A DNA stretch of 64,000 nt from Sulfurimonas sp. HSL-3221 (GCF_021044585.1 NZ_CP087998.1:1302001-1366000), one strand, 5' to 3'; numbered from the stretch's first letter, positions 23,557 to 36,742 are shown. Program-made: numbers and translations. The notes: a model not told the origin generated them from the sequence alone.

Positions 23557-24513
23557 TCATTTAGTAACATGGTTAATATTGCGTAAGTGTGTAGAATAGT
23601 AACGTGTGAAGCGGTGCTTTCCGTCGGCGCCTTTCGTAAAATAGAGGTACTCCGTTTTGGCCGGAAAGATCGCCGCACGGATCGCATCGAAGCCGACGTT
23701 GCAGACCGGGGCGGCCGGCAGACCGCTGTGCAGATAGGTGTTATAGCCGCTCTTGTCCGATCGGATGCGCGCGGCGGTGATCTTTTCATGGGAGTACGGA
23801 CCGTAGTTGAGTGTGCCGTCCATCTGCAGCTTCATCCCCTTGGCGAGCCGGTTGGCAATGACGGAGGAGACCAGCGGCATTTCCGCATTGTCCGCCGCCT
23901 CTTTCTGGATCACCGAGGCGATGATTATATAGTGGTACCATTTGCGCTCGTTGTAAAGGCCGAAGATCTTCTCCGACCAGGCGCGCTGTTTCGCCTCGGC
24001 GTAGCGCAGCAGCAGCTGCACGGCGTCGGGTTCGGTAATGCCTATGGGAAGCTGATAGGTATCAGGGACGATCGCCCCTTCCTCATAGGGGCTCTGCTCC
24101 CGGAACGCCTCCATCAGCCGTACCGGGTCGAGCCCGTGGCTCTCGGCAAGCTGTGTGAAGAAGACCTGGGTCGTCTCCCCGGGGACCAGGGTGACCGGTT
24201 TCATCGCCGCTTTGGAGGTCGTAATCCGGTAGAGGAAATCGCCGTGGGTCATGGCCGTGCTTCCCAGGTCGATCCAGCCGTGCTGCGGCCGGCCGACAAA
24301 GCGCAGCAAAAAGGCGTCCAGGCGGTTAAGCTGCGGGTTGGCGGTTTCTAGGTGTGTTATAATCTTGCGAATTGATCCCTGGGGAATATAGAGCACCTTC
24401 GATGTCGTGAGCCCCATATTCAGGTAATAGATGAACGACAACGCCATCAACAGAGCGATTGCACATACCCATTTTACGATCGTCGCGGTCATTGCTTTCT
24501 GTCTGGCCCTCAT
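23557..24513 (-). CDS. mltG: Endolytic transglycosylase MltG (YceG)
   Basis: A 318-residue inner-membrane peptidoglycan transglycosylase thought to cut nascent glycan strands and end their elongation. A short basic N-terminus (MRARQKAMTATIVKW) leads into one transmembrane helix. The LysM-like region and the YceG core follow, with the catalytic glutamate in ASVIQKEAADNAEMP and the conserved MDGTLNYGPYSHE and GYNTYLHSGLPAAPVCN segments. The 5' end overlaps the divergent AsmA-like gene by 83 nt whichever nearby start is used, so each promoter lies in the other's coding sequence. Both ends look intact. Confidence 0.93.
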   Translation of the reverse strand: MRARQKAMTATIVKWVCAIALLMALSFIYYLNMGLTTSKVLYIPQGSIRKIITHLETANPQLNRLDAFLLRFVGRPQHGWIDLGSTAMTHGDFLYRITTSKAAMKPVTLVPGETTQVFFTQLAESHGLDPVRLMEAFREQSPYEEGAIVPDTYQLPIGITEPDAVQLLLRYAEAKQRAWSEKIFGLYNERKWYHYIIIASVIQKEAADNAEMPLVSSVIANRLAKGMKLQMDGTLNYGPYSHEKITAARIRSDKSGYNTYLHSGLPAAPVCNVGFDAIRAAIFPAKTEYLYFTKGADGKHRFTRYYSTHLRNINHVTK

Positions 24514-27500
24514 CACTGTTCTCTACCTTACCCTCTCAAGCGGTGTCCATCTGGGCAAGCTCAAACTCGGCCGCCTTTATGCGGAGAAATTATACCTGAA
24601 GTGGGACGATGCACTTCAGGTCGAGATCGGCACGATCGCCCTCGCCCCTTCCGACGCGCCCGAGGAACCCACCGACCTCCTCAGCCTCCAGCGGCGTGTC
24701 TCCGCGGCGCTGAAGCACTTGGACGACCGCTGGATCGGCAGCCTCCGCATCGACCGCATCCGGCTCGGAAACGATCTTAGCGCCTCGCTCTTCTTCGACC
24801 CACGCCGCCGTAGCGACCTGCATGTCGCCTCCCGCGCCCAGGGGCACATCTCCATGACCCTTCTGCCTGTGCGAAACGCGGACGCCTACAAAATGGAACT
24901 ATACGGTGACAGCAGCAAGTTTGGCGGCACCTTCCGTTTCGAGGGCGTTCTGCAGCCCAAGCAGAGCGAACTCTACCTGGGCGGCAGCATCGACGTCGCC
25001 GAGGATATCCATCTGCGCCTGGGCGTGCACGCCACCCGCGACGCCGTCACCCTGAACACCTTCTCGACCGAACCGTTTGCGAGCGTCGCGCCGATCGTGA
25101 AACCCCTGCACCTCTCCGACCACGTCGAGCCGTGGATCGTCGCACGGGCCCAGGGCGGGCCGGTCATGCTGCACACCCTGCAGACGACCCTCCCCTTTGC
25201 CTCCCCGGCAAAAGCCTTCGACAATCTCTTCGGCCAGCTCACCTTTCATAATGCACGCTACCGTTTTGCCAATGACCCCGAGGCGTTTGAGCCTGCTCTC
25301 GCGGAGAAGGTCACCGTCCTCTTTGAGCATAAGGTCCTGAAGATCCTGCCGCACAATGCCACCTTTTACGGCGAACCGGGGGGAGAGACCAGCGTCGCGA
25401 TCGATTTTGGCGGCAAGGAACCGCTGCTGCAATTGGCCATTGTGACGACCGCACGGTTCACGCCGGCGCTGCAGCGTCTGACCGCTTCATACGGCATTGA
25501 CCTCCCCTTCACCCAGACCCGCGGGGTCACCGATACCAACCTGAGCCTGACCGTCAACCTCGGCCATGCGCAGACGACCGCCCAGGGATCCTTCAAGACG
25601 GAAAAGAGCCGCATCGATCTCGCCGGTCTCCCCATCACCGTCTCCCGGGCCGCCGTCGATCTGAAAGGTTCGGATGTCACCCTCCGCTCCGTCGATGCTT
25701 CGCTCTTTGATGGCAACGTGACCGGCAGCGTCACCGGGGCATTCAATCCGGCCAAACATCGTGGGACGATCCGCTTCAATCTCGGCGACGTTCGCTACCC
25801 TGTCGGCAATGCACCCATCGTCCTCTCTCCGCAAAGCGTTCCGATGCATTTTGAGTACCGCCTTCATCCCAAAGGCGACACCCTCCGCTTTGACGCCTCG
25901 CGGTGGCACTATATGGAGCACAATCTCACATGCGATGCCTTTACGGCCCCCTTTGACCTCAAGCAGGTGCGCTTTAACGTCCCCAAAACCGCCGTCACTC
26001 TGGACCGGACGGCACGGGCCAACGTGGAGGGTGAGATCTCCCTGTCCCCTCCCGCCGCCACCCTGCTGCTGGACCTAACATCGCTTCACGCCGGTACCTT
26101 TTCCACTGCGCAGGCGCACACCCTCTTCCATATCCGGGCCGACGAGAACCTCTCCGTCGTCAGCAATGCCACCACCCACTGGTCCATGGACAAGACGCCC
26201 CTCTCCGTCTCGCCTTTTACCGTTTCGAAACACAACGGCATTTTCCGCCTCTCCCCGGCCGTCGTTTCGATCGAACACCAGTTGACCGGCTCCGTCGAAG
26301 GTGTCTTTGAACCGGCGACGATGGCCACCGAGCTCAACGTCTCCAAATTCCGCCTCGAGGACGAGGGGCTCGGCAGGCTGTTCCAGAATATGGAGCGCTT
26401 CAGCGTCTATATCGTCCCCATCGACGACGAATACGACATCGTCATCCCCTCGATCAATATGGTCTATTCCACCCTGGGCAGGGGCTGGCGGCTGCACTTC
26501 TTCTCCCTGGATGCCCTGACGAAACATTCCCCGCTGCTGCGCGACTACAACCTCACCGAAAGCACCATCTCCGTCTGGTCGGAAAACGGGAACTATCCCG
26601 TCGCCTTCAACGGGATCGTCGATTACCCCTATGCCCTGACCGCCGTCAACGGGACGCCGGTCAACACCTACCGTTTTCAGGGGAGTATCGAACAAAACGG
26701 CACCCTGGAGTGTTCGATCAACGACCGTATCAAGGTCCGCAGCGGCGACACGATCCGCATCCGCTCCAACGGGGTTGACTTCAGCCAGCCCGAACTGACC
26801 CGTTTCTACCGCGACCACCATTTCAATACCGAAGACAATGCGAGCGAATCGAACACCTCGGTCTTTATCGATGCGAACGATACCGCCATTCTTTTCCCGG
26901 GCAAGCGTCAGGCCAAAGCCGACCGCATCACCATCGACTACAGCCCCAACCGCATTCTCGCGCAGCTCTATAAAGGGGGCGGCGGTGCCAAGCTCGACGT
27001 CAAAGGAGAGACCTTCTACCTCTTCGGATACCGCCTCGACGACGACTTCATGAACCATTTCTTCAACCTCTCAAAAGTCAAAGGCGGGACGCTGGACTTT
27101 TACATGATTGGAGAAAAGGACGACTTTAAGGGGCTGGCAAAGATCAACAACACGACCGTCTACGACTATGTGCTCTTCAACAACCTGTTCGCGTTTATCA
27201 ATACCGTCCCCGCCCTGGTCACCTTTTCACTGCCCTCCTATGAGACCAAAGGGATCAAAGTGCAATCCGCCTATGCCGAACTCGCTTATCACAAGGGGGT
27301 TCTGACGGCATCAAACATCAAAATAGACAGCAAAGAGCTTGATTTCGCCGGCCAGGGAACCATCGACTACAACAAAGACCGCATCAAGATGCAGCTCAGC
27401 GTCAAGACACGGGCCGCAGAGAACATTCGCAAGATTCCTCTGGTCGGTTATATTCTTGTCGGTGACGACAAATCCGTCCTGACGACACTGAGCATCAACG

Positions 27501-27691
27501 GCCCGCTGAACGATCCCAAGGTGGAGAACACGATCGCCAAAGACATCATCGTCAGTCCCTTCAATATCCTCAAACGCACCCTCGACTTTCCGCTGCACTA
27601 TCTGAAAAAACTCGACAGCGGCGCCGACGACGATGCCGATAAAGGAAAGGAGCCCCAGGAGGTCACCTCCGGCATCCCGCCCGCTAATTGA
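24431..27691 (+). CDS. AsmA-like (DUF3971/YhdP-type) giant envelope protein
   Basis: A 1086-residue protein with one N-terminal transmembrane helix (about residues 17-37). A long periplasmic region of repeating beta strands follows, ending in an AsmA-like C-terminal domain ('VQSAYAELAYHKGVLTASNI', 'IDYNKDRIKMQLSVKT', 'PLVGYILVGDD'). YhdP/TamB/AsmA proteins form hydrophobic grooves bridging inner and outer membranes and carry phospholipids. Its presence with an mlaA-mlaC-RND set 5 kb away suggests a lipid-transport role in this envelope, as inference. The start is an ATG after a weak AGG site and lies inside mltG on the other strand. A C-terminal Asp/Lys/Glu-rich tail ends it. Confidence 0.85.
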   Translation: MNDNAINRAIAHTHFTIVAVIAFCLALITVLYLTLSSGVHLGKLKLGRLYAEKLYLKWDDALQVEIGTIALAPSDAPEEPTDLLSLQRRVSAALKHLDDRWIGSLRIDRIRLGNDLSASLFFDPRRRSDLHVASRAQGHISMTLLPVRNADAYKMELYGDSSKFGGTFRFEGVLQPKQSELYLGGSIDVAEDIHLRLGVHATRDAVTLNTFSTEPFASVAPIVKPLHLSDHVEPWIVARAQGGPVMLHTLQTTLPFASPAKAFDNLFGQLTFHNARYRFANDPEAFEPALAEKVTVLFEHKVLKILPHNATFYGEPGGETSVAIDFGGKEPLLQLAIVTTARFTPALQRLTASYGIDLPFTQTRGVTDTNLSLTVNLGHAQTTAQGSFKTEKSRIDLAGLPITVSRAAVDLKGSDVTLRSVDASLFDGNVTGSVTGAFNPAKHRGTIRFNLGDVRYPVGNAPIVLSPQSVPMHFEYRLHPKGDTLRFDASRWHYMEHNLTCDAFTAPFDLKQVRFNVPKTAVTLDRTARANVEGEISLSPPAATLLLDLTSLHAGTFSTAQAHTLFHIRADENLSVVSNATTHWSMDKTPLSVSPFTVSKHNGIFRLSPAVVSIEHQLTGSVEGVFEPATMATELNVSKFRLEDEGLGRLFQNMERFSVYIVPIDDEYDIVIPSINMVYSTLGRGWRLHFFSLDALTKHSPLLRDYNLTESTISVWSENGNYPVAFNGIVDYPYALTAVNGTPVNTYRFQGSIEQNGTLECSINDRIKVRSGDTIRIRSNGVDFSQPELTRFYRDHHFNTEDNASESNTSVFIDANDTAILFPGKRQAKADRITIDYSPNRILAQLYKGGGGAKLDVKGETFYLFGYRLDDDFMNHFFNLSKVKGGTLDFYMIGEKDDFKGLAKINNTTVYDYVLFNNLFAFINTVPALVTFSLPSYETKGIKVQSAYAELAYHKGVLTASNIKIDSKELDFAGQGTIDYNKDRIKMQLSVKTRAAENIRKIPLVGYILVGDDKSVLTTLSINGPLNDPKVENTIAKDIIVSPFNILKRTLDFPLHYLKKLDSGADDDADKGKEPQEVTSGIPPAN

Positions 27692-27748
27692 TACCAACTC
27701 TCAAAAAGTTACCATACGTGACAAAAATGTCTTTTCTCCTTCATTTTT

Positions 27749-27798
27749 GATAATGATTGTCATATCTATTGACTTTTTCGGCTCATATCACCTATACT
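27749..27798 (+). promoter_or_regulatory. Fur-box-like site and sigma70-type promoter of the porin gene
   Basis: GATAATGATTGTCAT (27749-27763) matches 13 of the first 15 positions of the classical Fur consensus. It lies 5 nt upstream of TTGACT (27769-27774), with TATACT (27793-27798) after an 18-nt spacer. Ferric-uptake-regulator control of the porin, and perhaps of the genes after it, is a reasonable hypothesis. Confidence 0.6.
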
Positions 27799-27864
27799 TC
27801 ACCCATTATTTTGGGAATGATTCTTGAAATCGTAAAAATAGAAAACATAACAAAAGGATAGGTG

Positions 27865-29109
27865 ATGAAGCACATTGCACTTTCACTGGGAGCCGCCCTG
27901 CTGGCCGGTACGACACTCTGCGCGGACGAACTGAGCGAACTGAAAGCCCAGATCGCCGAACTGCAGGAAAAAACGGATGCCCTCATCGACGAAACGTCGG
28001 ACCTGAAAACGGGATTCAACTATACGACGGTCGATGCGAACGCCTCTGTCAACGGCATGGGGCCTGCAGCCTCAAAGGTCTACTACTCCAAGTCCCCGCT
28101 CTCCATCGGCGGCTACGGTGAAATGTACTGGTCCTCTCCGGACAGCGACGGTGCCGCCGGGGACGCCTATACAGACGTCTACCGCTTCGTTCCCTATATC
28201 GGGTACAAGTTCAGCGACAACATCGTCCTCAATACCGAACTGGAGTTCGAACACGGTGGCGAAGAGGTCGCCATCGAATTCATGTACATCGACTTCCTGC
28301 TGCATGAGGCCTTCAACCTCCAGGTCGGAAACCTCCTGGTGCCGATGGGTCTGATCAACAAGCGCCACGAACCGACGCTCTTCAACACGGTGCAGCGCCC
28401 GGACGTTGAGAAATACCTGATCCCTTCGACCTGGCATGAGACCGGGATTCTCGCCTACGGCAGTTTCAGCGATATCGGTCTTAGCTACACGGCAGGGATC
28501 ATCAACGCCCTGGCGCTCAACAACGACAATAATATGCCCGGTTCCGTCAACAAGAAATGGATCCGCAGCGGCCGTATCGGTTCGGAAGAGAACGGCCCGA
28601 TGCAGCGCGTCGGCTTTGTCGGGCGCCTTGATTACCGCGGTATCAGCGGTCTGCTCCTGGGAACATCGGCCTACTACGGCGCCGCGACACAGGGGCGCCC
28701 GAGCGGTGTAGACGCCTTTATGTACGACTTCTACGGCCAGTACGAAAAAGCGGGCTTCAAGCTCAAAGGCCTCTACACGGCCATCACCGTCTCGAATGCC
28801 GAGAAGATCTTCGCCGAAGCGGCGGACGGCGCGGAAGGGTACTACGTCAACGCGGAGTATGACCTGCTGGCGACACTGCCGACGCGCTACCGCCTGCCGA
28901 TCTTCGCACAGTATGAGAGCTATGATCCCGTCTCCTCCGTCGCCGGCGGTACCCGTCCCGACCTCGAGCAGACCAACACGACCGTGGGCATGAACTTCTT
29001 CCCTCACGAACAGGTCGTCCTGAAGGCGGACTACGTCATGACCGACTTCCATGACAGCGCGCTTGAAGACTACAACGTCTTCAGCATCGGGATGGGCTTC
29101 GTCTTTTAA
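27865..29109 (+). CDS. Outer-membrane porin-like protein
   Basis: A 414-residue protein with a signal peptide (MKHIALSLGAALLAGTTLCA). A short coiled coil (ELSELKAQIAELQEKTDALI) follows, then a beta-barrel region of aromatic-ended strands ('GGYGEMYWSSPD', 'DNIVLNTELEFEHGG', 'LGTSAYYGAATQ'). It ends in phenylalanine (GMGFVF) as expected for BAM substrates. This layout matches Campylobacterota porin-like/FmdC-type proteins, often used for anions or small metabolites. The GTG two codons earlier was rejected for the ATG after AAAGGAT. A Fur-box-like promoter precedes it. The downstream FMN-binding gene has its own extended -10 box. Confidence 0.85.
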   Translation: MKHIALSLGAALLAGTTLCADELSELKAQIAELQEKTDALIDETSDLKTGFNYTTVDANASVNGMGPAASKVYYSKSPLSIGGYGEMYWSSPDSDGAAGDAYTDVYRFVPYIGYKFSDNIVLNTELEFEHGGEEVAIEFMYIDFLLHEAFNLQVGNLLVPMGLINKRHEPTLFNTVQRPDVEKYLIPSTWHETGILAYGSFSDIGLSYTAGIINALALNNDNNMPGSVNKKWIRSGRIGSEENGPMQRVGFVGRLDYRGISGLLLGTSAYYGAATQGRPSGVDAFMYDFYGQYEKAGFKLKGLYTAITVSNAEKIFAEAADGAEGYYVNAEYDLLATLPTRYRLPIFAQYESYDPVSSVAGGTRPDLEQTNTTVGMNFFPHEQVVLKADYVMTDFHDSALEDYNVFSIGMGFVF

Positions 29110-29166
29110 GACGCCTCCCGCGCGCGCCCGGCGGGCGTTCCTTCTCCTTCCCGCTCCGCCGCCGTG

Positions 29167-29175
29167 TGTTATAAT
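29167..29175 (+). promoter_or_regulatory. Extended -10 promoter of the FMN-binding protein gene
   Basis: TGTTATAAT (TGn plus perfect TATAAT) lies 71 nt before the ATG at 29246. There is no clear -35 hexamer, which an extended -10 does not require. Confidence 0.6.
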
Positions 29176-29245
29176 TTTTATACAAAACCGATCCTCAAGT
29201 ACCCGCAGCGGCGGGGATTTGATAATCCGTTTTGAAGAGAGATCC

Positions 29246-29773
29246 ATGCTGAAAAAGTTGATAGTGACCCTGGTTTTACTGAGTGTCGGCGCGGCAGCCG
29301 CCCCGCTGATCTCGCCGATCGATGCGATGCAGCACGCCTTCGGGGCGCAGAGCGAAGTGACGAAGAAAAACACCCTGCTGAGCAGCAAGCAGGCTGCGGC
29401 CGTCACCAAACGCGCCAAGCTCAAACTGGAGACGAAAATCTACCGCTTCTACACCGCCGACATTGACGGCAAAGCCGTCGGATACGGTGTGCTGGTGACG
29501 CGCCAGGTCCGCCAAAAAGATGCCACGGTGCTCTACATGATCACGCCGGAGGGCACGATCCGGGCCATCGAGATCGTCGCCTTCAATGAACCGCCGGAGT
29601 ATATGCCCCAGCACACCTACCTCGAACAGTTCAAGGGCAAGGACGCGAACGCGACCCTGCGCGTCGGCAAAGACATCCCCACCGTCAGCGGGGCGACGCT
29701 CAGCGCGCGCAACGTCACCGACGGTGCCCGCCTCGCCCTGGCACTCTTCGAGACCGTGATCAGGAAACACTGA
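29246..29773 (+). CDS. Periplasmic FMN-binding (covalently flavinylated) protein
   Basis: A 175-residue protein with a signal peptide (MLKKLIVTLVLLSVGAAAA). A single FMN-bind domain of the NqrC/RnfG type follows. The modification motif SGATLS at residues 148-153 places Thr151 as the residue to which ApbE attaches FMN through a phosphoester bond. The apbE gene needed for this lies 1.4 kb away facing it. Such proteins relay electrons in the periplasm between a membrane quinol oxidase and soluble or extracellular acceptors. It overlaps the next gene by one base (TGATG). It lacks other cofactor motifs. Confidence 0.88.
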   Translation: MLKKLIVTLVLLSVGAAAAPLISPIDAMQHAFGAQSEVTKKNTLLSSKQAAAVTKRAKLKLETKIYRFYTADIDGKAVGYGVLVTRQVRQKDATVLYMITPEGTIRAIEIVAFNEPPEYMPQHTYLEQFKGKDANATLRVGKDIPTVSGATLSARNVTDGARLALALFETVIRKH

Positions 29774-30255
29774 TGCGCTTCACCCTCGTCAAAGACCTGC
29801 GCAGCGACGCGCTGATGCGTCCGCTGCTCAACGGACTACTCCTGTTTGCAGGCACCTTTCTCGTTGCCGACGCCTTTCTCAAACGCGACCATATCGGGCT
29901 CGACCGTGCCACCCTCTCTGCGACCCTTTACGGCAACGAAGCGGAGTTCATCGACCCCGTCAGCGAACATTTCGTGCTTGAACTCCTACACAGCGATATC
30001 TTCTTTATGATGATGACCCTGCTGACCCTCTCTGCCGTCTATGCGCGCCTCTGCCCGTTCAAACGCGTCGCCGCGGTCGTGATCAATATCGCCATGATCG
30101 CCGCCGCCGCCGACGTCGTCCTCTTTGCCCTTGCCTATTACAAAGGCGAAGCCTATCTCCTGCCGTGGCTGGGCGCCTTCTGGCTCTGGCACGGCACGGC
30201 CCTTTTCATGGCCTTCGCCTCGCTGCTCTACCTGAACGTCCTCAAGAAGCCCTGA
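29773..30255 (+). CDS. Four-helix membrane protein, candidate electron-transfer subunit
   Basis: A 160-residue protein with four predicted membrane helices (about 17-36, 75-92, 98-122 and 128-156). Histidines sit at the start of helix 2 (His73, in LELLHSDIFF) and in helix 4 (His140, in WLWHGTALF); these could bind heme b. A ~35-residue external loop follows helix 1. I do not recognise the family. It is coupled by TGATG junctions to the FMN-binding protein upstream and to another four-helix protein downstream, so the three very likely make one complex. Heme binding and quinol oxidation are inferences. Confidence 0.7.
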   Translation: MRFTLVKDLRSDALMRPLLNGLLLFAGTFLVADAFLKRDHIGLDRATLSATLYGNEAEFIDPVSEHFVLELLHSDIFFMMMTLLTLSAVYARLCPFKRVAAVVINIAMIAAAADVVLFALAYYKGEAYLLPWLGAFWLWHGTALFMAFASLLYLNVLKKP

Positions 30256-30722
30256 TGCAGCGCGCCTACCGTTTCGCCGTCGTCTATTTCGCCCTCTTCG
30301 GGCTGCTGCTGCTCGCATCGGCCGCCGCCCTCTTCGCGAGCAAGATCGGCTTCTCCGTGCAGGGCATCGAGCTCTACTATCTGGGCAGCGACACCGTCCC
30401 GGGCAAAAGTGCTTACGGACTGCTGGAGACCGCTGTGCCGCACCTGGGAGCCATGGGGCTTTTTATCATGGTGGGGGCGCATTTCCTGCTTTTCGCGACC
30501 GATACCGCCAAACGGCGTGCGATCCGGCTCGCGCTCACGCTCTTTGCCGCGGCGCTCCTCGACATCGTCAGCGGCTACTTCATCGCCTCCGGGAGCACCC
30601 TCTGGGTCTGGATCAAACTGGCGTCATACCTGCTGCTGAGCCTGCTGGGGACGCTGCTCATGCTTCAGTTGATCTACTACGCTTTTTGGCATAGCTTGTC
30701 GCGGCAACGACATCCCCGATGA
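30255..30722 (+). CDS. Four-helix membrane protein with paired helix histidines
   Basis: A 155-residue protein with four predicted helices (about 6-28, 62-82, 87-110 and 116-143). Helix 2 carries His63 and His76, 13 residues apart (TAVPHLGAMGLFIMVGAHF), a spacing that resembles histidines on one helix of a di-heme cytochrome b. A TYR-rich external loop (ELYYLGSD) follows helix 1. The start at 30255 shares a base with the stop of the preceding gene; longer frames were rejected. The last 65 nt overlap the convergent PH-domain gene. The combined evidence suggests a membrane electron-transfer partner of the flavinylated protein, not proven. Confidence 0.7.
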   Translation: MQRAYRFAVVYFALFGLLLLASAAALFASKIGFSVQGIELYYLGSDTVPGKSAYGLLETAVPHLGAMGLFIMVGAHFLLFATDTAKRRAIRLALTLFAAALLDIVSGYFIASGSTLWVWIKLASYLLLSLLGTLLMLQLIYYAFWHSLSRQRHPR

Positions 30723-31158
30723 TGGCACGGTGATATGCGAAGGGGGCTTTGATATGGCTGATGACATAGCGCCCCCCGGAGATCGTCAGGACCTCCAGCG
30801 TTCCGACGTCGATGTGGTTCTTGAACCGTTCACTGTAGGGCTTGATATAGATCGTCCGGATCTCCTCGAGGTTGATCGGTATGATCTCCCGGTTTTTGAA
30901 CCCCTTGTGGATGATGAGGCGTTCGGGCGTCAGCACGCAGTGGTAATGCTTCTTCTCCCGGATCTCCTGCAGATGCATGTAAAAGGTGCGGATGATGAGC
31001 ACCAGACCGATCACCCCGATCTCGTACTCGTAGCCGATAAACAGCAGCAGGGCACCCAGTCCGTAGAGGGAGAGGATGCCGTTATAGAATGTCTTTGATA
31101 TCTCGGCGGCAACAAGGATCGTCTCCTCCGGGTGCAGCATCTTCTCAATCATCTTCAT
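30658..31158 (-). CDS. Bacterial PH-domain membrane protein
   Basis: A 166-residue protein. The N-terminus (MKMIEKMLHPEETILVAA) leads into two closely spaced membrane helices (about residues 25-70). A bacterial PH-like domain follows (YHCVLTPERLIIHKGFKNREIIPINLEEI), of the bPH_2/YdbS type. The function of these proteins is mostly unknown; some are linked to membrane stress or lipid sensing. It overlaps the apbE stop by 14 nt, so it is in the HAD-apbE-PH transcript. Its tail overlaps the convergent membrane-protein gene by 65 nt. Confidence 0.8.
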   Translation of the reverse strand: MKMIEKMLHPEETILVAAEISKTFYNGILSLYGLGALLLFIGYEYEIGVIGLVLIIRTFYMHLQEIREKKHYHCVLTPERLIIHKGFKNREIIPINLEEIRTIYIKPYSERFKNHIDVGTLEVLTISGGRYVISHIKAPFAYHRAIIGDVVAATSYAKKRSRSTEA

Positions 31159-32080
31159 GGTTCCCCTCCAATACTTCAAGGTAGTGCGACAGGTTCGCGC
31201 TTTTGACGACGGTACCGTCACTGTAGATCAGCACATAGCCTACCGGCAGGGTCCGCAGAAACGCAACGGCTTTGGGGGGCGGCATCACGGCCGCCGCCGT
31301 CGTCCAGGCGTCGAGATCGCCGCTGCGTACCGTACCGACGAGGGTGATCGAAGCAAACGCGCGCTCCGATGCCCGCGTTTTCGGATCGATCAGGTGGTTA
31401 TGGGTTTTGTCCCCGACAAACCGCCGGTAGTCGCCGCTCGTACTCATTCCCGTTTGCGGGGCCAGACTTTTGAAGGTCATGAGGGTCCCTTCCGAAAAGG
31501 GGTCCTGGATCGCCAGGAGGCAGCGGCCGAGGCAGCGAATGTCGCCGCTGAGTGCCACGGTGCCCTCCGTAACCCCGCAGTGACGGAGCACGGCGGCGGC
31601 AGCGTCGAGACCCACCCCTTTGCCGAAGCCGCCGAAGTCGAGCATCGCGCCGGGTGCGAGCCGCGCGGCTGTCGCATTGAATTCCAGCAGGTTCAGGCCG
31701 ATCGGGAGGCCGGCGATTTCCGCCCTGCCCGGCACTCTTTCCGCTTCGCCGAAATGGTAGGCCCCGCGGCTGAGGGCACCGATGGTGATGTCGAAGTAGC
31801 CGTCGCTCTGCACGTAGTACCGCACCGCGCTCTGCAGGGCGTCATAGAGCGTCGGCGAGATCGCCAGCGCCCCCGCATGATTGAGGCGGTAGACCTCCGC
31901 GGCGGGGTCGTACGACGAAAGCGCCTTCTCGACCGAGGTCATGGCGGCGAAGGCCCCGTCGATGCAGCCTGCGGCGGTGTCCGGGACCGACACGGTGGCG
32001 AAGGTCCCCATCATCACACGGGTCCGTTCCGTCGCCTGCAACGACGCAAGCAGACACAGCAGGGAGAGCAGAAGCTTCAT
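31145..32080 (-). CDS. apbE: FAD:protein FMN transferase
   Basis: A 311-residue secreted flavin transferase that splits FAD and attaches FMN to a Thr/Ser of target proteins. A signal peptide (MKLLLSLLCLLASLQA) precedes the family's RTRVMMGTFATVSV. Further motifs are LDFGGFGKG, HNHLIDPKTR and the metal-binding LDAWTTAAAVM. The usual SGGD motif reads LSGDIRCLG, a small variation. The obvious substrate is the FMN-binding protein encoded at 29246-29773. I chose the ATG at 32080, 1 nt after the HAD stop; a TTG three codons earlier is possible. Confidence 0.93.
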   Translation of the reverse strand: MKLLLSLLCLLASLQATERTRVMMGTFATVSVPDTAAGCIDGAFAAMTSVEKALSSYDPAAEVYRLNHAGALAISPTLYDALQSAVRYYVQSDGYFDITIGALSRGAYHFGEAERVPGRAEIAGLPIGLNLLEFNATAARLAPGAMLDFGGFGKGVGLDAAAAVLRHCGVTEGTVALSGDIRCLGRCLLAIQDPFSEGTLMTFKSLAPQTGMSTSGDYRRFVGDKTHNHLIDPKTRASERAFASITLVGTVRSGDLDAWTTAAAVMPPPKAVAFLRTLPVGYVLIYSDGTVVKSANLSHYLEVLEGNHEDD

Positions 32081-32081
32081 T

Positions 32082-32708
32082 TCAGACAATGTCCAGCAGT
32101 GCGGCAGGGTGCCCGATGACGATATCGCCCTCCCCCTCGGCGCTGAAGCCCCAGGTGGAGAAGATGCCCGTAATGCCGGCCAGGCGCGCGGCGTCGATAT
32201 CTTTGCTGTTGTCGCCCACCATCCAGGCCCGGTGCTCCTGCGGCCGAAACCCCAGGGCGTCGAGGATCAGGCGGAGCATCGCCGGATCCGGCTTTGACGC
32301 CCCGGCGATGTCGGGGCCGATGATATGGTCGAAATAGTCCGCGATGCCGAGATGCCTGATCATCCTTGCGGCAAAGGTGCTCGGGGCATTCGTCGCAACG
32401 GCAAGCCTGACGCCCGCAGCGTGAAGCGTCTCGACCGTCTCGCGGATACCCGGGTAGAGTACGGGATTCTGGATGCACTGCTCATGGTAGTGCGATTCGA
32501 AGAGCTCGCGGTCGCGCGTCTCGTAATGCTCCGTCCCGTAAAAAAGTTTGGGCAGATTGCGCACGGGCCTGTTGATCCATGCGACGACGGTGCCGCTGTC
32601 GATGGGCGGCAGGGCATGATTCGCCGCCCTGACGTGGTTGATCGAGCAGGTGATGTCGTGCTGCGAATCGATCAGCGTTCCGTCCATGTCAAAGATCACA
32701 ATACGCAT
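32082..32708 (-). CDS. HAD family hydrolase (phosphoglycolate phosphatase-like)
   Basis: A 208-residue haloacid-dehalogenase phosphatase. Motif I is FDMDGTLIDS, motif II VATNAPS, the lysine of motif III is in GASKPDP, and motif IV is VGDNSKDIDAARLAG. The helical cap between residues 15 and 80 places it with Gph/PGMB-type enzymes. Substrate is unknown; the family covers phosphoglycolate, sugar phosphates and FMN-like phosphoesters. It begins the leftward HAD-apbE-PH operon behind a TGCTATAAT extended -10 box. A role in flavin nucleotide turnover is conceivable given apbE but is not supported by sequence alone. Confidence 0.88.
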   Translation of the reverse strand: MRIVIFDMDGTLIDSQHDITCSINHVRAANHALPPIDSGTVVAWINRPVRNLPKLFYGTEHYETRDRELFESHYHEQCIQNPVLYPGIRETVETLHAAGVRLAVATNAPSTFAARMIRHLGIADYFDHIIGPDIAGASKPDPAMLRLILDALGFRPQEHRAWMVGDNSKDIDAARLAGITGIFSTWGFSAEGEGDIVIGHPAALLDIV

Positions 32709-32744: not shown

Positions 32745-32834
32745 GCAAAGCGCCATGAGATGCGTCATATTGTGATTTTCCTGTGACAATTTGCAGTGAA
32801 ATATTTAAACATTTTTGGTACAATCCTGACATTC

Positions 32835-33650
32835 ATGAAGAGACTCATTCTGACAATCGCATTCGGGTTTACGCTGCTTCACGCCCAGTCGGGAGACGTG
32901 CCCGCACCCTCTGAAACGGAAAAAGTCGGTCCGCTCGCCCACCTCTCCGGTCCCGAAGACGAGATTTTTGACGACAGCGGCTTCGACGATGCCGGTTTCG
33001 AGGAGGAGTTTACGGACGACGCCAAACCGGCCTATGACCCTTTTGAAGGGTATAACCGCTGGATGACCGGTTTTAACAATACCCTCTTCGATTACATCCT
33101 CAACCCCGTGTTCAGCGCCTATGACTTTATCCTGCCCGAACCGATCCGGGTCTCGATCAACAATATTTTCAACAACCTCTACTACCCCGTCAGCCTTGTC
33201 AACAACCTGCTCCAGCTCAAATTCGACCACGCGCTGACCGAGACGGGGCGCTTTATTATCAACTCCACTTTCGGGTTCGCCGGGATGTTCGACACCGCCA
33301 TGCAAATAGGGGTGGAGCCCCATGTGGAGGATTTCGGGCAGACCCTGGGGCACTACGGCGTCGGGAACGGTTTCCCGATCGTCCTGCCCTTTTTCGGCCC
33401 CAGCAACCTGCGCGACATCACGGGGGATCTGATCGATTTCTATGTCAACCCAATCTATTATGTTGACCCAAGAAAGTATAATATCCCCCGCGATACGTAT
33501 GAAGGGTGGGGATTGGTAGGCTACAAGCGCTTCAACAAGTTCTCCCTCTACCGGAAGGAGTACCTGCAGATCCGCGAGGAGGCCCTGGACTTCTACCCAT
33601 TTATGCGCGATGCCTACGAGCAAAACCGCAACAAACTGATATCGGAGTAA
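32835..33650 (+). CDS. mlaA: MlaA (VacJ) outer-membrane lipid-asymmetry lipoprotein family
   Basis: A 271-residue protein of the MlaA/VacJ family, which removes phospholipids from the outer leaflet of the outer membrane. The core has YDPFEGYNRWMTGFNNTLFD, NNLYYPVSLVNNLLQ and 'EDFGQTLGHYGVGNGFPIVLPFFGPSNLRD', all typical. The N-terminal signal (MKRLILTIAFGFTLLHAQS) lacks a lipobox cysteine, so it may be a soluble or non-lipidated form. An acidic Asp/Glu/Phe segment precedes the core. The ATG at 32835 is used rather than an upstream codon. It starts the mlaA-mlaC-RND operon. Confidence 0.94.
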   Translation: MKRLILTIAFGFTLLHAQSGDVPAPSETEKVGPLAHLSGPEDEIFDDSGFDDAGFEEEFTDDAKPAYDPFEGYNRWMTGFNNTLFDYILNPVFSAYDFILPEPIRVSINNIFNNLYYPVSLVNNLLQLKFDHALTETGRFIINSTFGFAGMFDTAMQIGVEPHVEDFGQTLGHYGVGNGFPIVLPFFGPSNLRDITGDLIDFYVNPIYYVDPRKYNIPRDTYEGWGLVGYKRFNKFSLYRKEYLQIREEALDFYPFMRDAYEQNRNKLISE

Positions 33651-33654
33651 TGTC

Positions 33655-34239
33655 ATGAAAAAACTGTTCTATCTTGCCCTGCTTTCCCTGCTGCTGCCCC
33701 TCTCGGCCGCGGCGCTCGAAGCGAACGAGATCGGCAGCGTGATGCGCCAGAAGGTCGATGCGGTCCTGGAGATCCTCAACGATCACAACAAAAGCAAAAC
33801 GGACCGCAATGCGGCCATCGAGCAGGAGATGGACCCCTATTTCGATTTTGTGCTGATGGCGAAGCTCAGTCTCGGCAAAACCGGCTGGCAGGAGGCGACC
33901 CCTCCCCAGCGCAAAGAGTATGTCGTTTTGTTCGAGCGCCGGATCAAGGACTTCTATATGAGCAAACTCGACCTCTACAAGGACGAAGCCATCACCCTTG
34001 AAGCGCCGCGGCAGGTCAAGAACCGTATCTATCTCAACAGCTACATCGTCGAAAAGGGCGAGAAGAAAGAGGTGCTCTACAAGTTCTACCATGCCAAAGA
34101 GGGGTGGCTGATCTACGACGTCGACGTGCTGGGCGTGAGCATCATCCAGTCCTACCGCAGCCAGTTCGCCGGCGAGCTCGAAAAGGGCTCGATAGAACAG
34201 CTTCTCATCAAACTGCGTCAACCACAGCCTGATGCTTAA
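33655..34239 (+). CDS. mlaC: MlaC periplasmic phospholipid-binding protein
   Basis: A 194-residue periplasmic carrier with a signal peptide (MKKLFYLALLSLLLPLSAAALEA). The MlaC/Ttg2D domain includes YFDFVLMAKLSLGKTGWQEA, 'YVVLFERRIKDFY' and VSIIQSYRSQF near the C-terminus. It shuttles phospholipids between MlaA and an inner-membrane transporter. It lies 4 nt after mlaA and overlaps the RND gene by 8 nt. No mlaFEDB ABC transporter is nearby, so the RND protein is the likely inner-membrane partner, as in Campylobacter Cj1371-1373. Confidence 0.93.
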   Translation: MKKLFYLALLSLLLPLSAAALEANEIGSVMRQKVDAVLEILNDHNKSKTDRNAAIEQEMDPYFDFVLMAKLSLGKTGWQEATPPQRKEYVVLFERRIKDFYMSKLDLYKDEAITLEAPRQVKNRIYLNSYIVEKGEKKEVLYKFYHAKEGWLIYDVDVLGVSIIQSYRSQFAGELEKGSIEQLLIKLRQPQPDA

Positions 34240-36742
34240 ACGCTTCTATACCGGCTTCGTTTTCCGGTACCCCCGCACGGTCATCGCCCTAGTGCTGCTC
34301 ACAGCGGCGCTGCTGGGCACCCAGGCGGTGAAGCTCAGCGTCGACGCCTCCGCCGAGACCCTGCTGCTTGAAAATGACAAGGACCTCGCCTACACCCGCC
34401 TCGTCGCCAAACGCTACCGCGGCCAGGACTTCCTCGTCGTCACCTACACCCCCGACGCCGACCTCCTCGCCCCGCAGACCCTCGACAATATCCGGACCCT
34501 CAGCGCGGCGCTGCTGAAGATCGACGGGATCGACTCCGTCAACTCCATTCTCAACGTCCCGCTCCTGGAGAGTCCTCCGAAACCCGTCAAGGAGCTGCTG
34601 GAGAAGATCCCCTCCATCGAAGCGGGCGACGCGAACCTGACCCTGGCCCGCGAAGAGTTCAAACACAATCCCCTCTACGTCTCCAACCTTGTCAGTCCGG
34701 ACCTCAAAACGACGGCTCTGCAGGTCAACCTCGTCCGCGACGACCACTACTACGAGCTGCTTGACCGCCTCAACGCCCTGCGCGCGGCCGACGACAACGG
34801 CACGCTCACCGCAGAGGGCAGGACCGAGCTTGCCGACGCGACGGCCGTCTTCAAAGCGTACCGCGACGTTGCCCGCGAACGCGACCACCGCATGATCCTC
34901 GCTGTACGCGATACGCTGCGCACCCATCAGGCGGCGGGGCAGCTCTTCCTCGGCGGCGTGACGATGATCGCCGACGACATGGTCACCTTCGTCAAACGCG
35001 ACCTCAAAACCTACGGCGTGGCCGTCCTGGCCCTGCTGATCCTCGTGCTTTGGACGGTCTTCCGCCAGAAGCGCTGGGTCGCCCTGCCGGTGCTGATCTC
35101 CGCCCTTTCCATCGGCATTACGGTCGGGCTGCTGGGGATGCTTGGTTTCGAGATCACCGTCATCTCGTCCAATTTCATCTCCTTGCAGCTGATCATCACG
35201 ATCTCCATCATCATCCACCTGATCGTGCGCTACCGCGAACTCGCGCTGACCAACCCCGCAGCCTCCGAAAAAGAGCTGGTACTGGAGAGCACCCTCTCCA
35301 TGTCCAAACCGACCTTCTTCGCCATCATCACGACGATCGCGGGCTTCGCGTCGCTGATGCTCTCGGGGATCAAGCCGGTCATCGCCCTGGGCTGGATGAT
35401 GAGTATCGGCATCAGCGTCTCCCTGATTGTCACCTACTTGCTCTTTCCGGCCGTCAACGTGCTGCTCAAGCGCAAACAGCCGAAAACGACCTTCGACAAA
35501 GAGTTCTCCGTCACCAAGATCCTGGCGACCTTCACCGAACGTCACGGCGCATGGACGCTTATGGCCACCGTCTTGCTGATCGCCTTCTCCGTCACCGGCG
35601 CGCAGCGGCTCGTCGTCGAGAACAGTTTTATCAACTATTTCAAGCCCACGACGGAGATCTACCAGGGAATGTCCGTCATCGACCGCCAGCTCGGCGGGAC
35701 GACGCCGCTGGACATCACCATCGACCTCCCCCAGCCCCCTACAGCCGAAAGCCCGTCCGAACCCGCTGCCGACAGTGCGGCCGGTTTCGACGAATTCGAC
35801 GAATTCGCCGAGGAGTTCAATGCCGAGGCGAAAGGGGCCCAGTACTGGTTTACGGAGAACCGGATGGAGGTTGTGCGCCGTGTCCACGAGTGGCTGGAAA
35901 GCGTCCCTCATGTCGGAAAGGTCCTCTCGCTCGGGACGATGCTCGAAGTGGGCCGCACCCTCAACCACGGCCGTGAACTCGACAACTTCGAGCTCGCGCT
36001 GCTCTATAACGAGATGCCCGCGAAATTCGCCGATATCATTCTCAAACCCTACGTCAGCATCGAGCACGACCAGGCCCGTTTCGCCCTGCGCATCATCGAC
36101 TCCGATGCCGATCTGCGCCGTGCCGACCTTCTCAAAGAGCTGCATGACGGGCTGATCAACGTGGTCGGCATCCCCCCGGAACATCTGCACATCTCCGGCC
36201 TGATGGTGCTGTACAATAATATGCTCCAGAGCCTCTTCGAGTCGCAGATCGCCACCCTCGGCGTCATGGCCGTTCTGCTCTTCTTGATGTTCTGGGCCCT
36301 CTTCCGCTCCTTCCTCACAGCCGTCGTCGCCATTATCGCGAACCTCGTTCCCGTCGGGACGGTCTTTGGCGTCATGGGATGGTCCAATATCCCCCTGGAC
36401 ATGATGACCATCACCATCGCCGCCATCAGCATCGGGATCGCGGTCGACGACACCATCCACTACATCCACCGTTTCCGGATCGAACTTGCGCGCGACGGCG
36501 ACTATGTCGCGGCAATGCACCGTTCCCACGAGAGTATCGGTTACGCCATGAGCTACACCTCTGCGGCCATCATGATCGGTTTCGTCATCCTCGTGCTTTC
36601 GGTCTTTATCCCGACCATCTACTTCGGCCTTCTGACCGTGCTCGTCATGTTTATGGCGATCGTCGCGGACCTCATGCTGCTACCGAAGCTCATCCTGCTG
36701 CTGCGTCCTTTCGGACAGGTGACGAAAAAAGTTGTCAATTAA
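34232..36742 (+). CDS. RND/MMPL superfamily lipid exporter-like protein
   Basis: An 836-residue transporter with twelve predicted helices arranged as 1+5 and 1+5 around two large periplasmic loops. The N-terminus (FVFRYPRTVIALVLLTAALL) and the helix 4-6 block with GLLGMLGFEITVISSNFISL and 'IDDTIHYIHRFR'-like text (AVDDTIHYIHRFRIE) match the HpnN/MmpL-type RND family. These move hopanoids, lipids or sterols using proton energy. Coupling to mlaC suggests it moves phospholipids across the periplasm, as inference. The second loop contains an Asp/Glu/Phe-rich insert (about residues 505-535). Confidence 0.9.
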   Translation: MLKRFYTGFVFRYPRTVIALVLLTAALLGTQAVKLSVDASAETLLLENDKDLAYTRLVAKRYRGQDFLVVTYTPDADLLAPQTLDNIRTLSAALLKIDGIDSVNSILNVPLLESPPKPVKELLEKIPSIEAGDANLTLAREEFKHNPLYVSNLVSPDLKTTALQVNLVRDDHYYELLDRLNALRAADDNGTLTAEGRTELADATAVFKAYRDVARERDHRMILAVRDTLRTHQAAGQLFLGGVTMIADDMVTFVKRDLKTYGVAVLALLILVLWTVFRQKRWVALPVLISALSIGITVGLLGMLGFEITVISSNFISLQLIITISIIIHLIVRYRELALTNPAASEKELVLESTLSMSKPTFFAIITTIAGFASLMLSGIKPVIALGWMMSIGISVSLIVTYLLFPAVNVLLKRKQPKTTFDKEFSVTKILATFTERHGAWTLMATVLLIAFSVTGAQRLVVENSFINYFKPTTEIYQGMSVIDRQLGGTTPLDITIDLPQPPTAESPSEPAADSAAGFDEFDEFAEEFNAEAKGAQYWFTENRMEVVRRVHEWLESVPHVGKVLSLGTMLEVGRTLNHGRELDNFELALLYNEMPAKFADIILKPYVSIEHDQARFALRIIDSDADLRRADLLKELHDGLINVVGIPPEHLHISGLMVLYNNMLQSLFESQIATLGVMAVLLFLMFWALFRSFLTAVVAIIANLVPVGTVFGVMGWSNIPLDMMTITIAAISIGIAVDDTIHYIHRFRIELARDGDYVAAMHRSHESIGYAMSYTSAAIMIGFVILVLSVFIPTIYFGLLTVLVMFMAIVADLMLLPKLILLLRPFGQVTKKVVN

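Follow-up and report, generated by a model that had tools for sequence, protein, structure and literature searches.

Covalent attachment of flavin mononucleotide (FMN) to [S/T]GA[S/T] motifs by the flavin transferase ApbE is established (PMC8238504). In the surveyed electron donors of flavinylated systems (PepSY, MsrQ and DUF4405) the most conserved residues are heme-binding histidines of the membrane helices, and FezC has been modelled as building such a site by homodimerisation (PMC11334425). About half of the surveyed genomes with the ApbE machinery possess no previously characterised electron-transfer system (PMC11334425). Here we describe a locus from Sulfurimonas sp. HSL-3221, located in a 64,000-nt stretch of its genome (hereafter the window, in which all positions of the locus are counted), which includes genes coding for an outer-membrane porin, a periplasmic FMN_bind protein, two membrane proteins with four transmembrane (TM) helices designated MP1 and MP2, and an ApbE facing them. 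The five genes form a conserved unit across several families of the order, the cassette depends on flavinylation and, judging by its upstream sites, is apparently switched on by iron shortage, and the whole set probably passes electrons out of the inner membrane, helping to reduce and take up iron.

Gene content and distribution

MP1 was searched for in relatives and then across the order and the phylum, and the neighborhoods of the hits were read with per-gene profiles. This resulted in 68 MP1 hits from 67 genomes, one locus being split over two contigs. Among the 68 homologous loci, FMN_bind is found in 66, MP1 in 65, MP2 in 64, the porin in 59 and ApbE in 55, with several of the missing genes being contig ends or losses of sensitivity; homologues of the membrane proteins are thus usually accompanied by flavinylation genes. 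In the window itself, all genes named in the original prediction are present where it had put them. The gene order porin-FMN_bind-MP1-MP2, usually with a facing ApbE, is kept down to approximately 21% MP1 identity and is shared by seven of the order's families (f1, f3, f4, f6, f7, f15 and f18), the window belonging to f1, whose named members include Sulfurimonadaceae metagenome-assembled genomes. The distribution is patchy: in a sample of 399 genomes from across the order, 50 have MP1. The four proteins show correlated pairwise divergences (r 0.68–0.85), genome relatedness contributing to these values. A scan of genome contigs with a single MP2 sequence as the query matched only five close relatives, and no matches were obtained in plasmids; a PHROGs search returned nothing useful. 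No description of the porin-FMN_bind-MP1-MP2 cassette was found in the literature, subscription papers being outside the coverage.

The two other genes which had been proposed to face the operon together with ApbE did not prove to be parts of the cassette. The gene coding for a putative PH-domain membrane protein, a weak match in itself (bPH_2, E 0.013, below the cut-off), occurs in 4 of the 68 loci, all of them from the window's genus, and the HAD phosphatase gene in 6, from the window's genus and one other genus, so both are regarded as neighbors.

The FMN_bind protein, identified with PF04205 (E 9e-08), has the motif SGATLS and terminates in DIPTVSGATLSARN.... In the alignments of 68–69 sequences used for all residue counts here, with residues counted wherever a letter stands, the acceptor Thr is conserved in 68/68, the Gly in 67/68 and the Ala in 66/68 members. 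ApbE (PF02424, E 4e-53) is encoded in 28/28 relatives with MP1 versus 4/32 without it (60 relatives, Fisher p 4e-13), and one of these four is a 76%-complete draft from the window's genus. In the window's genome, ApbE and FMN_bind give a single hit each, both within the cassette, and in the relatives' genomes having an FMN_bind hit the gene adjoins MP1 in 24 cases out of 25. With an encoded transferase and an extracytosolic motif-bearing substrate, the cassette would qualify as an ApbE-dependent flavinylated system, as had been predicted for the FMN protein. The riboflavin synthesis gene RibBA stands beside ApbE in 16/68 loci, nearly all of genus g2.

The MP1 and MP2 proteins

The genes coding for the FMN_bind protein, MP1 and MP2 are joined by stop/start overlaps (TGATG), and AlphaFold2 produces confident four-helix models for both membrane proteins (pLDDT 91), which agrees with the earlier description of two coupled four-helix proteins. 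MP1 and MP2 are related to each other according to hhalign (98.4%), a result which served as the positive control for profile comparisons, and the MP1 profile also picks up the adjoining MP2 in more than 12 genomes with E values down to 8e-13. On these profile comparisons the two proteins are assigned to one duplicated, unannotated family.

Three histidines, namely MP1 H73, MP2 H63 and MP2 H76, are invariant (68/68 each), and MP1 H140 is His in 64/68 members and Asn in four divergent ones. All four positions, which had been singled out in the original prediction, lie within predicted helices, and the pair has conserved candidate axial histidines in TM helices, as would be expected of a membrane b-type cytochrome. 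MP2 K121 is near-invariant, and position 61 of MP1 is D or E in 68/68 sequences and belongs to a Gly-Asn/Asp-Glu-rich loop. No invariant carboxylate or Cys was found within the helices of either protein in the alignments, and CXXCH is absent from both.

Family and structure searches placed MP1 and MP2 in no known group: Pfam gave nothing up to E 1, NCBIfam had no match either, and a PDB sequence search with both profiles was empty up to E 5. Foldseek and VIA-align gave generic four-helix bundles or MAPEG-type folds at best (best Foldseek E 0.5), an absence of matches which is no proof of a new fold. PepSY-, MsrQ- and NapH-like identities were rejected, with no match to PF03929/PF16357, PF01794 or PF12801 up to E 1, as was DUF4405, with no PF14358 match up to E 1 and profile-profile values of 0.4% and 0.6% against 20 family members. 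Profile comparison likewise gave less than 1% for kinship with b561 or MntP. We present MP1 and MP2 as candidates for a new class of membrane cytochromes or electron-transfer proteins associated with flavinylation.

Two related genomes carry an inserted cytochrome b561 gene that separates MP2 from ApbE (L036:7904-8485 and L039:5960-6541), the L036 copy matching PF01292 and the L039 copy being its homologue. This insertion hints at a tie of the module to membrane b-type cytochromes.

Regulation and iron-related neighbors

Fur acts as a repressor under iron sufficiency. The original prediction pointed to a Fur-box-like site ahead of the porin, and indeed TGATAATGATTGTCA at 27748-27762 fits 13 out of 14 positions of TGATAATnATTATCA, is the sole Fur-like site with one mismatch within the window, and has a score which was reached in 0/200 order-1 Markov shuffles of the sequence preceding the porin. 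Promoter patterns of the TTGACT-18-TATACT type number four, with 2.0 expected in shuffles of the region. The best TGATAATnATTATCA match upstream of the porin reaches at least 12/14 in 50/55 loci versus 16/297 control genes of the same loci, so the control by Fur suggested earlier, as read from the sites, is well supported. The Fisher p of 1e-40 for this enrichment overstates independence, because close relatives share sites, but the sites vary in sequence and position between genera. Out of the five loci with no match of this quality, three (L086, L093 and L094) have the porin within an imelysin operon.

Operons consisting of genes coding for imelysin, di-haem oxidoreductase (DHOR), a second imelysin-type protein, FA_hydroxylase and a porin homologue adjoin five loci from several lineages; in three of them, the operon's porin runs straight into a MauG-like gene, FMN_bind, MP1 and MP2. 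A role in iron uptake has been suggested for imelysin-like proteins (PMC3143127). Of the 60 relatives, 7/28 with the cassette have imelysin versus 1/32 without it (p 0.02), and FeoB is encoded in the window's genome and in 25/28 cassette genomes. Iron is the best-supported target of the module, because imelysin operons adjoin the cassette in five relatives and FeoB is present in most cassette genomes. MP1 and MP2 need not be an Fe(II) importer themselves, since FeoB is at hand. No PepSY-type reductase or donor was found in the window's genome.

Several other redox genes were observed at the loci. In six loci of several genera (L026:5180-6391, L027, L028, L086:6984-8150, L093 and L094), the porin is separated from FMN_bind by a CCP_MauG-type di-haem gene, and a multihaem cytochrome c gene directly follows MP2 in several genus g2 genomes (L032:7935-9035, C554/C7-like, with homologues in L035, L070 and L073). 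The imelysin-di-haem oxidoreductase-imelysin-fatty-acid-hydroxylase operon can be seen at L034:360-5032, L038:1544-6278 and L086:9497-12468; the fatty-acid hydroxylase of this iron operon is a membrane protein.

Map of the locus

Table 1 Features of the locus, with positions in the window
Feature	Position	Strand	Remarks
Fur box TGATAATGATTGTCA	27748..27762	+	13/14 to the 7-1-7 consensus; equivalent in 50/55 homologous porin promoters
Sigma70-like promoter TTGACT-18-TATACT	27769..27798	+	Just 3' of the Fur box; pattern match only
Outer-membrane porin, signal peptide and N-terminal coiled coil, Porin_O_P-like	27865..29109	+	In 59/68 homologous loci
Periplasmic FMN_bind protein, 175 aa, motif SGATLS with Thr151	29246..29773	+	Thr invariant, 68/68
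MP1, 4-TM membrane protein, H73 and H140	29773..30255	+	AlphaFold2 pLDDT 91, four long helices
MP2, 4-TM MP1 paralogue, invariant H63 and H76, near-invariant K121	30255..30722	+	hhalign 98.4%
Small membrane protein, weak bacterial PH-domain match	30658..31161	-	Local neighbor; 4/68 loci, all window's genus
ApbE FAD:protein FMN transferase, signal peptide	31145..32080	-	Genome's sole ApbE hit; 55/68 loci, mostly facing
HAD_2 phosphatase, phosphoglycolate-phosphatase-like	32082..32708	-	Local neighbor; 6/68 loci

The porin was assigned with PF07396 just over the cut-off (E 3.4e-05). The region 23557-27691 of the window is occupied by an MltG-like gene (read from sequence) and a large YhdP-family gene, which are divergent with overlapping 5' ends and are retained beside the cassette in the window's genus. 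Directly downstream, at 32796-36742, there is an operon coding for MlaA, MlaC and an RND-type exporter (MMPL-like, read from sequence), with no MlaFEDB ABC transporter genes seen beside it within the stretch read.

Functional interpretation

On balance, we believe the cassette to be a Fur-repressed module, induced by iron starvation, which carries electrons from quinol to FMN for ferric iron reduction. When iron is scarce, Fur would leave the box at 27748 and the porin-FMN_bind-MP1-MP2 operon would be expressed, and ApbE would make the covalent FMN bond at Thr151 of the FMN_bind protein in the periplasm. MP1 and MP2, presumably products of an ancient tandem duplication, would heterodimerise in the inner membrane, where MP1 H73, usually together with H140, and MP2 H63 and H76 may hold one or more b-type hemes and relay menaquinol electrons to the bound FMN. 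The protein carrying FMNH2 could then reduce ferric iron in the periplasm, or complexes of it that have entered through the porin, and the resulting Fe(II) would be imported by FeoB. Within this scheme we infer the quinol donor, the heme in MP1 and MP2, the heterodimer, the Fe(III) acceptor and the passage of ferric complexes through the porin. An attractive simple arrangement has heme 1 between MP1 H73 and MP2 H63 and heme 2 between MP1 H140 and MP2 H76, but a fixed scheme of two hemes and four histidines cannot hold everywhere, because H140 is replaced by Asn in four members.

Several observations weigh against ferric reduction by a quinol-fed cytochrome pair. The four members with the H140N replacement have kept both MP2 H63 and H76, MP1 and MP2 could not be linked to any of the known cytochrome families tested and their folds match only generic four-helix bundles, the window's genome lacks imelysin, and most loci have no iron transporter adjoining the cassette. 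Because of the latter, the Fe(III) acceptor rests on Fur control and on a minority of neighbors. As for the original prediction as a whole, Fur control, flavinylation, the coupling to the membrane pair and the helix histidines have stood, and the membership of the PH and HAD genes has not; those of its refuting conditions which were checked by computation all turned out in its favor.

Fur control is also compatible with an iron-sparing role, in which the induced FMN protein would replace periplasmic cytochromes c and feed a respiratory or peroxidase partner, for instance a MauG-like di-haem protein, with no iron reduction involved. Substitution between flavins and cytochromes has been described in respiratory systems (PMC8238504), and six loci do have a MauG-like gene between the porin and the FMN gene; however, the co-transcribed porin and the adjoining imelysin operons would be left unexplained, and the likely partners are heme proteins themselves. 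This role is considered unlikely. CCP_MauG-type genes can also belong to copper systems (MbnH/MbnP), and no substrate is assigned to the porin, so the acceptor might be another metal or substrate (copper, a ferric siderophore or an organic acceptor) handled only under iron limitation. The conserved regulator site is that of Fur rather than of a copper regulator, and the imelysin and DHOR neighbors point to iron (PMC3143127), leaving this the least probable of the explanations considered.

It is also quite unlikely, if slightly less so than a different acceptor, that MP1 and MP2 are an Fe(II) permease, with the helix histidines and the acidic periplasmic loop GNEEEFIDP guiding iron and the FMN protein, reduced by another donor, making the Fe(II). 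The cassette is apparently under Fur control, the acidic loop of MP1 and the helix histidines are conserved, and most cassettes have no dedicated transporter gene, all of which would suit a permease. Nevertheless, FeoB is already encoded in 25/28 cassette genomes, the helices contain no invariant carboxylate or Cys, and the cassette would be left with no other candidate membrane donor, by which the characterised flavinylated systems are minimally defined (PMC8238504). Returning to ferric reduction by the quinol-fed pair, we suggest, more tentatively than the module itself, that MP1 and MP2 may be the first members of a new transmembrane b-type cytochrome family, forming a heterodimer derived from tandem duplication with two histidines per subunit, which would be an unlisted class of quinol-to-flavin electron-transfer apparatus for ferric reduction under iron starvation in Campylobacterota.

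Comparison with described systems

The flavinylation-associated systems described by Meheust et al. in 2021 (NapH-, MsrQ-, PepSY-, DsbD- and NQR/RNF-like) likewise combine ApbE, an extracytosolic FMN_bind substrate and a linked membrane protein, and the PepSY-like ones are also linked to Fur and tied to iron reduction (PMC8238504). Unlike them, the cassette has two paralogous 4-TM membrane proteins encoded alongside a porin, and these two proteins fall outside those families in Pfam and NCBIfam scans. DUF4405 proteins and FezC, described by Huang et al. in 2024, are likewise small membrane proteins, DUF4405 having a link to apbE and FezC to iron organelles, and their most conserved residues are heme b-binding histidines of the helices (PMC11334425). 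DUF4405 has six TM helices versus four in MP1 and MP2, and its profiles gave less than 1% probability; FezC, modelled as a homodimer in contrast to the diverged paralogues MP1 and MP2, is set apart by description only. The imelysin and di-haem oxidoreductase operons (PMC3143127) are similarly linked to iron and to the envelope and lie next to the cassette in five relatives, where they carry a homologous porin, but their proteins are separate families, with imelysin missing from the window's genome.

The cassette thus offers a concrete, conserved and Fur-linked candidate electron-transfer system for one bacterial lineage, and if the proposed function is true, it would represent a new class of membrane cytochromes and a route of ferric reduction in widespread environmental bacteria of the sulfur cycle. 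Since MP1 and MP2 lie outside the described families by sequence, the claim is one of resemblance in working and not of membership, and in this sense they look like a heterodimeric counterpart of the helix-histidine heme donors, with four histidines distributed over a duplicated pair.

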